From: Stagnimonas aquatica
GTDB taxonomy: Bacteria; Pseudomonadota; Gammaproteobacteria; Nevskiales; Nevskiaceae
Assembly: GCF_003730135.1 (NCBI RefSeq)
Contig: NZ_RJVO01000002.1
Coordinates: forward strand, 186,001-250,000
Reading direction: 5' to 3'
DNA: 64,000 nucleotides
Part shown: positions 20,237-54,164 of the stretch, in pieces
How the letters are laid out: each line of letters opens with the position of its first letter
Numbering within the stretch: the stretch's first letter is position 1
The notes under the pieces: model-generated
What the model saw: only the letters and a program-made list of their open reading frames with translations
Database searches by the model: none
Told to the model about the DNA's origin: nothing
Translations under genes and position numbers: made by a program

Positions 20237-20455
20237 GTCTTCGCCCTGTTCGTAATTGCTTGTGGATGAGAGAGGCCGGCACGGCGAGCGTGGAGCGCCC
20301 GCAGCGAGGCCCGATGCGGCTTGCAATATCCTCGCCGGACGCCCTCGACGGCAACCGCTGCGCGCCGGAAAAATTAGCTCTGCCGCCGCCTTGCGCGAGC
20401 ACCGCCGCTAAGCTCGCGTCTGCAACAACGGTCCGCAGAAACCGTGGAGGAAGAA

Positions 20456-21784
20456 ATGAAAGATGCCCACTGGCGCGCCGTCGCGCTGCTCAGCCTGCTG
20501 CTCGCCGCCTGTGGCGGCGGCGGCGAGGACAGCACAGAGGCTCGCTATCAGGCCAGCGCCCGTGAGGCCGGCTGGGTCGGCGCCTGGTCGGCGGCGCCCT
20601 ATGGACCGTATCCGCAAGGCCCGTTGAGCAGCGTGCTGCCGGTCGATCCCTTGGGCGCCATCACCTACTTCGAGAACCAGCAGGCGCGCGAGCAGAGCTT
20701 CCGCATGGTGGTGCATCCCACCGTGGGCGGGCAGCGGCTGCGGCTGCGTTTCTCCAACCTGCTGGGCGACCGTCCGCTGCACCTGGAGCCGGTGAGCCTG
20801 GCACTACGCGCCGCCGGCCCGGCACTGCTGCCGGGCAGCGCCAAGCCGGTGCTGTTCGCCGGGGCACCGGGGGTGCTGATCGCCCCGGGCGCGGAGGCGA
20901 TCAGCGATCCGCTCGACTTCGCCTACGACTACGGCCAGGACCTCGCCGTGTCCTTCCATGTGGTCGGCGAGAGCGGGCCAATGACCTGGCACGCGGTGTC
21001 CTTCGGCTTCAACTACGTCAGCCTGCCGGGCAGCGGCGACCGCACCGCCGATCCGAGCGGCCTGCTGTTCGGCCAGACCAGCCTGGGCTGGTTCTTTTTG
21101 AGCGGCGTCGATGTCCACGCGCCCGACTCGCCCGGCAGCCTGGTGATGCTCGGCGACTCGATCACCGACGGCGCCTACGAGGTGCCGGAGACCAACACCC
21201 GCTGGCCGGACTTCCTCGCCGCCCGGCTCGACGCCCTGGGCGCCAACATGGGCGTGCTCAACCAGGGCATCAACAGCAATACCGTCACCCGCGCCGGCAT
21301 CCTCGAAGGCGAGCTGTACAAGGGCCCGGCCGCCGAGGACCGCTTCCAGCGCGACGTGCTCGACCGCTCCGGCGTGCGCGGCCTGCTGTTGTTCGAGGGC
21401 ACCAACGACCTCACCTCGGGCGTCTCCGGCGAGGCGCTCTACGCCGGCCTGCGGCGGCTGGTGGACCGCGCCCATGCCGCCGGCCTCTGCGTGGTGCTGG
21501 GCACCCTGATGCCGCGCGACGACCTGCTGTTCGGCTGGGACCGCGCGACCATGGAAGACCAGCGGCAGTGGCTGAATGCGCGCATCCGCAGCGACGGCGG
21601 CGTCGAAGGCATCGCCGACTTCGACGCGGTGATGGGCAGCCCGCTGGACGCCAGCCGACCCAACCCGCTGCTCTACTTCCCCGACCTGCTGCACCCCAAC
21701 TCGCTGGGCTTCTATGTGATGGCCCAGGCGGTGCCACTGGAAGCCCTGGTGCCGCCGCCGCTGGGGCGTTGCACGCGACGCTAG
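20456..21784 (+). CDS. SGNH/GDSL-family esterase lipoprotein
   Basis: A 442-residue lipoprotein with lipobox LLAAC followed by glycines. ATG 20456 is preceded by GGAGGAAG. The SGNH blocks are VMLGDSITDG (catalytic serine), NQGINSNTVTR, LFEGTNDLTSG and the catalytic DLLHPN. The N-terminal 200 residues form an extra beta-rich domain (GQRLRLRFSNLLGDRPL), as in GDSL proteins of the rhamnogalacturonan acetylesterase/lysophospholipase type. Substrate unknown. Its TAG stop is formed by the CTAG end of the repeat element that follows. Confidence 0.88.
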   Translation: MKDAHWRAVALLSLLLAACGGGGEDSTEARYQASAREAGWVGAWSAAPYGPYPQGPLSSVLPVDPLGAITYFENQQAREQSFRMVVHPTVGGQRLRLRFSNLLGDRPLHLEPVSLALRAAGPALLPGSAKPVLFAGAPGVLIAPGAEAISDPLDFAYDYGQDLAVSFHVVGESGPMTWHAVSFGFNYVSLPGSGDRTADPSGLLFGQTSLGWFFLSGVDVHAPDSPGSLVMLGDSITDGAYEVPETNTRWPDFLAARLDALGANMGVLNQGINSNTVTRAGILEGELYKGPAAEDRFQRDVLDRSGVRGLLLFEGTNDLTSGVSGEALYAGLRRLVDRAHAAGLCVVLGTLMPRDDLLFGWDRATMEDQRQWLNARIRSDGGVEGIADFDAVMGSPLDASRPNPLLYFPDLLHPNSLGFYVMAQAVPLEALVPPPLGRCTRR

Positions 21785-22049
21785 GGCGAATCGGCACTCA
21801 TTGCATTGCTGCGTTGCGAGTCAAAACCGCGCAGTGCGAGGCGCGAGACGCCGCGCAGGTTAGAACCTGGGCAAGTCTCGCAACGATGCAATGCGCGGTT
21901 TTGGCCGCAACCCTTCGGGGCCGGACTGTTTTGGCGCATCGCCACGTCAGCAAGTCCTTCAATACCGACGTATTGCGCAGACTCGCTTCCTCGCGCTGCG
22001 CCAAAACAGCCTCGGCCGCAGCGATGCAATGAGTGCCGATTCGCCCTAG
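21781..22049. repeat. Structured CTAG-bounded inverted-repeat element, copy A
   Basis: A 269-bp element with a perfect 26-bp terminal inverted repeat (21781-21806 and 22024-22049), both ends CTAG. Inside are an 11-bp arm (21823-21833 with 21892-21902), a 13-bp arm (21926-21938 with 21997-22009), and small hairpins at 21857-21868, 21911-21920 (CCC-TTCG-GGG) and 21960-21975. There is no ORF of note and no transposase. It shares conserved blocks with copy B at 53308-53679. Both flanking genes take their TAG stop from its ends. Confidence 0.9.
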
Positions 22050-51947: not shown

Positions 51948-53297
<1,350 letters not shown>

Positions 53298-53307
53298 GGC
53301 GCCGGCG

Positions 53308-53679
53308 CTAGGACCTGTGAACGCTATGGGAGTCGCTGCGGCCGAAGGCTGTTTTGGCGCAGCGCAAGGAAGGGAGGCCGCGCGATGGTTGATACCATCG
53401 AAGGACTCGCTGACGCCGCGATGCGCCAAAACAGTCCGGCGCCGACACGGTGTTTGCGAAGCAAGGGGTGCGGGAGGCGCCGGAGGTGCTCGTGCCCGCA
53501 CCCACCTCGCTGCGCGAAGGCCCCGTGGCACGAGCACGCCCCGAAGGGTTGCGGCCAGAAAGCCGCCATGCCGCGTTGCTCGTCGCTCGTTTAGAACGAC
53601 TAAACCACGCTCCTCGCGCCTCGCCTGGCGGCTTTCTGACTCGCAACGCAGCGATTCCCATAGCGTTCACAGGTCCTAG
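53308..53679. repeat. Structured CTAG-bounded inverted-repeat element, copy B
   Basis: A 372-bp element in the accB-accC gap, inverted relative to copy A. The terminal arms (53308-53331 and 53656-53679) are perfectly complementary over 24 bp and start CTAG. Arms 53557-53568/53626-53637 and 53349-53361/53422-53434, and hairpins 53383-53400 and 53589-53605, match the positions of those in copy A. An extra arm (53486-53496 with 53527-53537) is present only here. Identical blocks with copy A include 16 bases at 53637-53652 and 19 at 53538-53556. No coding capacity is evident. Confidence 0.9.
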
Positions 53680-54164
53680 GCGGGGTCGATGGCGAACAGC
53701 GGTTGGTCGAACTCCACCGGCTTCTCGTTCTCGGCAAGCACGGCGGCAATCACGCCGTTCTTGTCGGCCTCGATCTGGTTGAGCATCTTCATGGCTTCGA
53801 TGATGCAAAGAACCTGCCCGGCCTTCACCGTCTGCCCCACTTCCACGAAGGACTTCGCGCCCGGCGAGGGCGAGCGGTAGAAGGTGCCGACCATCGGCGA
53901 CTTGACGATGTGCTGGTTGCTGGCCGGGGCGGCAGGTGCGGCGGCCGGTGCCGCCGCGGCGGGCGCGGCTGCCGCGACCGCAGCGGGTGCCGGCGGCTGC
54001 GGGTACTGGCCGTAGGCGGCGGGCGGCAGCATCACCTGCTGGGCCAGACCACCGGTGGGATAGCGGCTGATGCGCACGCTCTCCTCACCTTCCTTCACTT
54101 CCAGCTCGGCGATGCCGGACTCTTCTACCAGGTCGATGAGCGTCTTGATCTTGCGCAGGTCCAT
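53676..54164 (-). CDS. accB: Biotin carboxyl carrier protein of acetyl-CoA carboxylase
   Basis: A 162-residue protein. The N-terminal region is [20 protein letters not shown]; an Ala/Pro linker follows; the C-terminal biotinyl domain has the lysine in [16 protein letters not shown]. The TAG stop is formed by the CTAG end of repeat copy B. It follows aroQ by 74 bp. Confidence 0.97.

Follow-up and report, generated by a model that had tools for sequence, protein, structure and literature searches.

Two copies of a structured repeat, A and B, lie in the window (the whole 64-kb stretch of DNA analysed) at the places that an earlier note had given them, which re-reading of the sequence upheld (Table 1). 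Copy A is flanked on one side by a GDSL-like lipase gene and on the other by an esterase-like gene on the opposite strand, and copy B separates two acc genes. With the improved ends listed here, both copies read AGG..CCT once the flanking CT/AG is trimmed. Read directly, the blocks of 16, 19 and 22 nt that the two were said to share are identical, as is the arm CTGTTTTGGCGCA, and the outer arms, second arms and small hairpins differ between them, again as claimed. The outer arms had also been called unrelated; A and B do differ there, but common end motifs, AGGG..TGT and TCGCTGCG, are kept across the family. The TGT is absent from the ends of A and of its near-twin L011, which is unusual within the family.

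Table 1 Coordinates in the window of copies A and B, their parts and adjoining genes
Feature	Position	Strand	Remark
Copy A, whole element (265 nt)	21783..22047	+	Alignment row 1; fold; covariance model R1
Copy A, left outer arm	21783..21812	+	
Copy A, hairpin 1	21813..21911	+	
Copy A, mini-hairpin	21912..21918	+	CCTTCGG
Copy A, hairpin 2	21919..22017	+	Includes outer part of stem
Copy A, right outer arm	22018..22047	+	
Copy B, whole element (368 nt)	53310..53677	-	Between accB and accC
Copy B, left outer arm	53648..53677	-	
Copy B, hairpin 1	53548..53647	-	
Copy B, extra domain (~100 nt)	53438..53537	-	Separates the hairpins
Copy B, hairpin 2	53340..53437	-	
Copy B, right outer arm	53310..53339	-	
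GDSL-like lipase gene	20444..21784	+	Left end of A completes its TAG stop
accB	53676..54164	-	Left end of B completes its TAG stop
accC	51948..53297	-	Start just past copy B

Four other copies (L015, L016, L017 and L096) are similar in length to B. Sequence matching the extra domain of B also occurs outside the element, over 92 nt at 84–85% identity in two places in genome G018, and there is a 36-nt match in the host at C6:176219; the domain looks like a repeat nested within a repeat. As a separate observation, the site orthologous to that of copy A in genome G004 (L284) reads CGCTAGGGCCGAAACGCTCCTAGGGCTGC, possibly the footprint of a deletion of the element.

The element is built as an outer stem of ~30 bp, followed by hairpin 1, the mini-hairpin CCCTTCGGGG, hairpin 2 and the right arm. 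Folded as RNA, copy A reaches -181.8 kcal/mol (z -17.1), which none of 200 shuffles equals, and copy B, likewise folded as RNA, reaches -228.7 kcal/mol (z -13.75; 0/100 shuffles as good). Compensatory change had been proposed from these two copies. Two copies alone are insufficient for that conclusion; covariation is proven by 38 copies, for the outer stem as well as for the two hairpins, and the claim of a structured repeat family therefore stands. The alignment used, A1, holds 38 of the 52 extracted copies, leaving aside the five long ones (B, L015, L016, L017 and L096), three with indels (L046, L059 and L089) and L091, L092, L093, L094, L100 and L103. From it RNAalifold draws 98 pairs, 56 of them with change on both sides. 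Standard pairs fill 97.6% of cells, compared with a mean of 81.9% in shuffled alignments, none of which (0/500) reaches the observed value. When partners are slid by 1–3 columns, 35–46% of cells pair, a comparison that favours the real structure over the slid versions, the structure having been drawn from the same 38-copy alignment.

How freely the arms vary is seen in a larger set of 108 distinct two-armed copies, which were gathered with anchor patterns and a requirement for arm complementarity (16/24 outer positions). Their middle (positions 9–24 on the left) takes 90 distinct 16-mer forms among the 108 copies, and neither non-complementary arms nor the constant terminal repeats of a single insertion sequence (IS) were seen: a copy's own arms match at 14.46/16 positions on average and arms from different copies at 7.37/16. 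These copies were pre-selected for complementary arms, and the unselected control is provided by loci chosen by BLAST alone, 128 of 136 of which have long-range complementary arms (inverted arms scoring at least 15 over a span of 200–420), as against 0/136 after shuffling. Several of the eight failures are contig-end cuts or loci without an element. Each of the 18 host loci picked by BLAST alone has at least 20 of its 24 outer positions paired.

Changes between copies preserve pairing. For example, the INDEPENDENCE test, which used 50 disjoint copy pairs matched by interior similarity to lessen the effect of kinship, counted 218 both-sided changes in the outer stem that remain Watson–Crick, 98 one-sided changes and 17 both-sided changes that leave the position unpaired. 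When copies were instead paired on the similarity of their arms, the corresponding counts for the hairpins were 220, 231 and 50, indicating that the hairpins tolerate one-sided change more than the outer stem does. Moreover, at three loci a copy is present in each of two genomes (L085/L340, L180/L190 and L312/L366, with flanks 90–95% identical), and the outer stem at every one of these loci has undergone one or more double changes in place: T-A/C-G at position 4, G-C/A-T at position 26 and A-T/G-C at position 11. One-sided changes occur at these loci too, three of them outside position 23, and the hairpin-2 stem of L312/L366 differs as a block. Some positions stand apart from this pattern. Position 23 of the arm (column 24) is Watson–Crick in only 41/108 copies, compared with 104/108 for each of positions 22 and 24, and at L312/L366 it has changed on both sides, from A.C to G.T, and is still mismatched. 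In the 101 of 108 copies with lengths of 255–300, which also served for the hairpin mismatch counts, columns 40–129 read T.G in 80/101 and columns 150–244 read G.T in 100/101, so that both are rarely or never paired.

The fold is kept beyond sequence. We compared a covariance model built from A1 (R1) with a sequence-only model (R2). An element on a Variovorax paradoxus plasmid (L410) scores 148.9 bits with R1 (E 1e-37) over its full length and 28.4 bits with R2, and its fold has a z of -17.7; the plan thus persists in Variovorax with nearly unrelated stems. Order-level relatives (L037, L038, L039, L097 and L098, with L033 and L097 being one place) score 164–187 bits with R1 and 65–91 bits with R2. 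Copy A, a member of the training set, scores 259.9 bits with R1, and copy B scores 211.5 bits, although it lies outside the training alignment. Outside recognised elements R1 reaches up to 29.7 bits (L036, which adjoins a 67-bit match) and 25.2 bits (L031), which leaves scores under about 30 bits with little meaning.

It is improbable, in our view, that pairing is kept by mutation bias rather than by selection, with template switching or conversion copying changes between the arms. The pairs are almost strictly Watson–Crick with few wobble intermediates, the outer stem has about as many G.T as A.C mismatches, single loci show double changes, and the block difference in hairpin 2 of L312/L366 looks like conversion between copies, all of which would suit such a mechanism. 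Position 23, however, stays mismatched in arms that are otherwise well paired, even where both of its sides have changed, and this persistence speaks against a sole cause in the simple copying of one arm to the other. The standing mismatches in the inner columns point the same way, although their letters could be conserved for other reasons, as does the survival of the plan in Variovorax.

A and B are members of a real, widespread and structurally conserved mobile repeat family, which is found in many copies in Nevskia-like bacteria and also on one Variovorax plasmid. BLAST with copy A gave 33 matches in the host genome, which fall at 18 loci (counted by hand), and of the 41 genomes searched 15, counting the host, had matches. 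When a copy from another genus was used as query, 16 of 18 genomes of that genus had matches, and a pattern scan of the genome collection returned 64 stretches titled Stagnimonas, Nevskia, Nevskiaceae, one 'Lysobacteraceae' MAG and one Gammaproteobacterium. BLAST of A against phages and plasmids returned no copies, and none was found in viral contigs scanned for the linker pattern. Elements are about 265–275 bp long, or about 365 bp with the extra domain, and the host genome also holds single ends and truncated pieces. Inserts of ~11–13 nt occur at varied places within the hairpin stems of four copies (L046, L089, L190 and L366). Another copy (L103, G003 C21:62424) lies within what appears, by eye, to be an open frame of two relatives (..GTG TAC ATG GGC..), so copies may not always be intergenic.

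Mobility is evident from the empty orthologous sites found in relatives for several loci. Most copies sit at CTAG-like sites, and the usual flanks are CT|AGGG..CCCT|AG. Where the 3' end of a left-hand gene faces the element, the open frame ends 1 nt from it in 22/53 cases, as expected if the AG of the element completes a TAG stop; this reading was checked by eye for A, B, L011, L014, L018, L020 and L083. IS5-type elements usually duplicate their target. Here, among the 99 of 108 copies used for flank counts, TA stands on both sides in 48, and target duplication is inconsistent. At L019 the empty allele reads CGCTCATGAGC in one of four relatives aligned, and at L082 two relatives read C|AG, both of which fit insertion without duplication; other empty sites are compatible with either model or too diverged. 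Duplication of a TA target, of IS630 or IS5 type, is thereby weakened as the sole explanation. As to replication-strand bias, neighbouring copies on one contig, judged by eye in three genomes (G000, G006 and G059), were 14 same and 17 opposite.

The earlier note had held that the element is not a miniature inverted-repeat transposable element (MITE), and this view did not survive, for two arm subtypes match IS5-family terminal repeats over their outer 15–20 bp. We searched seven arm sequences against plasmids at a loose BLAST threshold. One query led to two IS5-family transposase genes (L408 and L409), which are bounded by CTAGGGCCTGTTAAC[GA]CTA and its complement, with ends CTAGGGCCTGTTAACGCTAA..TGTGTTAACAGGCCCTAG and CTAGGGCCTGTTAACACTACG..TAGTGTTAACAGGCCCTAG, respectively. 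A second led to an 817-bp element in Acinetobacter (L414) that contains DUF4096 and DDE_Tnp_1 pieces between ends CTAGGGCCTGTCATCAATTAG..TTAATTGATGACACGCCCTAG. The single arm matches are short (19–21 nt, BLAST E about 1–3 each), and support for IS5 comes from their sitting at both ends of IS5 genes. The remaining five queries, the arm of A itself among them, found no IS gene in the plasmids. Copies carrying the matched subtypes occur in the host genus (for example, L080 and L060, and L012 and L020), and in L070 and L079 a similar interior lies between different ends, AGAACTTGTCCGTAAA. A 272-bp Cupriavidus sequence (L412) was rejected as a copy of the element: its ends match, its fold is different and its interior looked like an IS remnant. 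None of the IS5 loci (L408–L409 and L411–L414) exceeds 10.5 bits with R1.

No transposase gene lies inside the 265-nt element; open reading frames overlap it, but it is too short for such a gene, and covariation in its stems runs base by base. Only 1/58 genomes gave a close IS5 homologue (E<=1e-20) among those of the host's own family (G022), with one matching end found (L411); G022 gave no element match in the 41-genome BLAST, and an autonomous partner in the same genome as the element was not found. With the patterns tried, no IS-sized pair of element ends turned up in the host genome or its genus. Because MAG assemblies lose ISs, a missing partner carries little weight as evidence, but the host genome (G000) is 99.8% complete.

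An unlikely alternative is a REPIN-like element, moved as folded single-stranded DNA by a putative HUH transposase (Y1, TnpA_REP-type) that would recognise a mismatched hairpin and cut beside CT at the base of the stem, giving CT|AGGG..CCCT|AG and no target duplication. Insertion without clear duplication, usually beside CT, is consistent with this scheme, as is the standing mismatch near the inner end of the outer stem at position 23. In addition, among 36 hand-chosen genomes, Y1 genes occur in 20/21 with an element match and in 9/15 without (Fisher p 0.013, uncorrected for kinship), and a Y1 protein, 76–97% identical, is common to eight element-matching genomes of the genus of G006. However, the element has no REP tag (GTAG or CGTC), its ends being mostly AGGG..CCCT, and no copy lies beside any of 31 Y1 loci in flanks of up to 1.5 kb (best similarity 16–28 nt; protein picks miss 5 of the 31). 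A separate GTAG hairpin accompanies the Y1 gene of the host (G000a), genome G024 has no Y1 match and yet holds an element cut by a contig end (L034), orientation relative to genes shows no bias, and two arm subtypes match IS5 terminal repeats. Co-occurrence thus suggests a Y1/RAYT partner, but none of the Y1 loci searched adjoins a copy, and we do not favour it. The Y1 (HUH) transposase-like protein of the genus of G006 is encoded at L387, L388, L390–L394 and L398; the flanks of seven loci checked contain no 14-nt inverted repeat. The GTAG-tagged, REP-like hairpin GTAGGAGCGGGCTTGCCCGCGA adjoins the host Y1 gene at L197 (G000 C1:327267).

As the molecule in which the fold acts, RNA or single-stranded DNA had been suggested; a one-strand RNA is disfavoured by our counts and a DNA fold is favoured, though not proven. 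Of 97 of the 108 copies classified by frame and GC3, 68 lie between co-directional genes, 34 oriented with them and 34 against, and 16 convergent and 13 divergent sites are also used. Outer-stem mismatches are balanced (89 G.T and 76 A.C, or 45 and 46 without positions 17 and 23), and this balance together with the 34:34 split makes a one-strand RNA unlikely. Wobbles sorted by orientation, in a strand test that leaves out five standing-mismatch columns, show no significant shift (29/28 versus 28/25 in the hairpins; 15/10 versus 13/21 in the outer stem, p 0.12, in the direction expected for RNA). The hairpins may nonetheless have some strand preference: the two inner sites (columns 40–129 and 150–244) are almost fixed as G.T on one strand, 68 G.T and 8 A.C are found at the top of hairpin 1, and the hairpin-2 stem has the opposite bias, 8 and 37. 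Rfam gave 0 matches at gathering score in the 64-kb window and, on both strands of five element loci, only sub-threshold microRNA-type matches, the best being mir-3926 at 35.5 bits against a gathering score of 82. A transcribed operon insulator, able to fold whichever way round it lies and serving to protect mRNA or to block Rho, would fit the many co-directional sites, accB–accC included, the harmlessness of a both-strand fold in both orientations and the G.T excess atop hairpin 1, but it is very unlikely given the convergent and divergent sites, wobbles that do not follow the transcribed strand and the reversed bias in hairpin 2.

With moderate confidence, we favour a family of non-autonomous, IS5-ended mobile DNA elements whose fold is selected as DNA. 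We propose that the ends are cut, and the element inserted at CTAG, by an IS5-family DDE transposase that another element supplies and that the host has in many cases since lost. Each subfamily would live on one transposase at a time, which must match both ends, and both ends would change together for that reason. Independently, the whole element may be selected to fold as DNA, either as a one-strand hairpin or as a two-strand cruciform, in which fixed unpaired or mismatched positions may be points of protein contact. Such a fold would act in either orientation, unlike a strand-specific RNA.

More broadly, and with more doubt than conviction, the elements could be a mobile-DNA family across Gamma- and Betaproteobacteria in which the conserved 'gene product' would be the folded DNA itself: mobility or copying would require a branched hairpin, or a cruciform, that keeps a fixed mismatch, and paired changes of the ends would switch the element between IS5-family transposases. 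In that case an element of the DDE-transposase type, or some other recombinase, would take DNA secondary structure as its substrate. Were transposition to depend on the fold, the family would join double-strand DDE transposons and single-strand hairpin elements, which are normally separate. Constant ends are the usual mark of miniature transposons. Here the shape is conserved and much of the sequence changes, so that relatives would escape BLAST and ordinary repeat finders, as the Variovorax scores (28 versus 149 bits) illustrate. The ~108 copies are in effect a set of natural mutants of one DNA fold, and at orthologous filled sites selection could be cleanly told from template-switch repair.

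In the literature searched, which as a search listing is not proof of absence, we recognised no description matching the plan of this family, and the earlier note knew of none. Several known systems share parts of it. The Beta-proteobacterial repeat element (BRE) is 75–91 bp long and often tandem according to the extract consulted (PMC3110155); compared by description only, it is likewise a repeat in Betaproteobacteria and mostly intergenic. REPINs, and REP sequences with RAYTs, resemble our element as mobile hairpin DNA: in the portions of the sources available, TnpA_REP cuts single-stranded REP at CT and needs a mismatch bulge in E. coli REPs (PMC8266576), and compensatory changes are noted in the REPIN hairpin (PMC3116915). 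By contrast, our element is longer and branched, is without a GTAG/CGTC tag or an adjacent RAYT among the loci searched, varies in its outer stem and has IS5-like ends in two subtypes.

The closest parallels lie among IS5-related elements. MITEPsy1 of Pseudomonas syringae, listed as 'IS5?' with a target duplication of CTAG or YTAA in the part of the source consulted (PMC3189936), also lacks a transposase gene, has IS5-like ends and such a target, and is multicopy. As described in that extract, it is 100 nt long, its repeats measure 18 nt, it duplicates 4 nt of target, and its six copies in one strain end identically (PMC3189936), whereas the element here is ~268 nt long, with paired arm variation, a conserved branched interior fold and inconsistent duplication. 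The IS5-family ISs L408, L409, L411 and L414 share terminal repeat sequence and CTAG flanks with it (L411 at one end), but carry a transposase in ~810–830 bp. The family is therefore MITE-like by the ends of two subtypes, while its branched fold and the paired variation of its arms set it apart from known MITEs.
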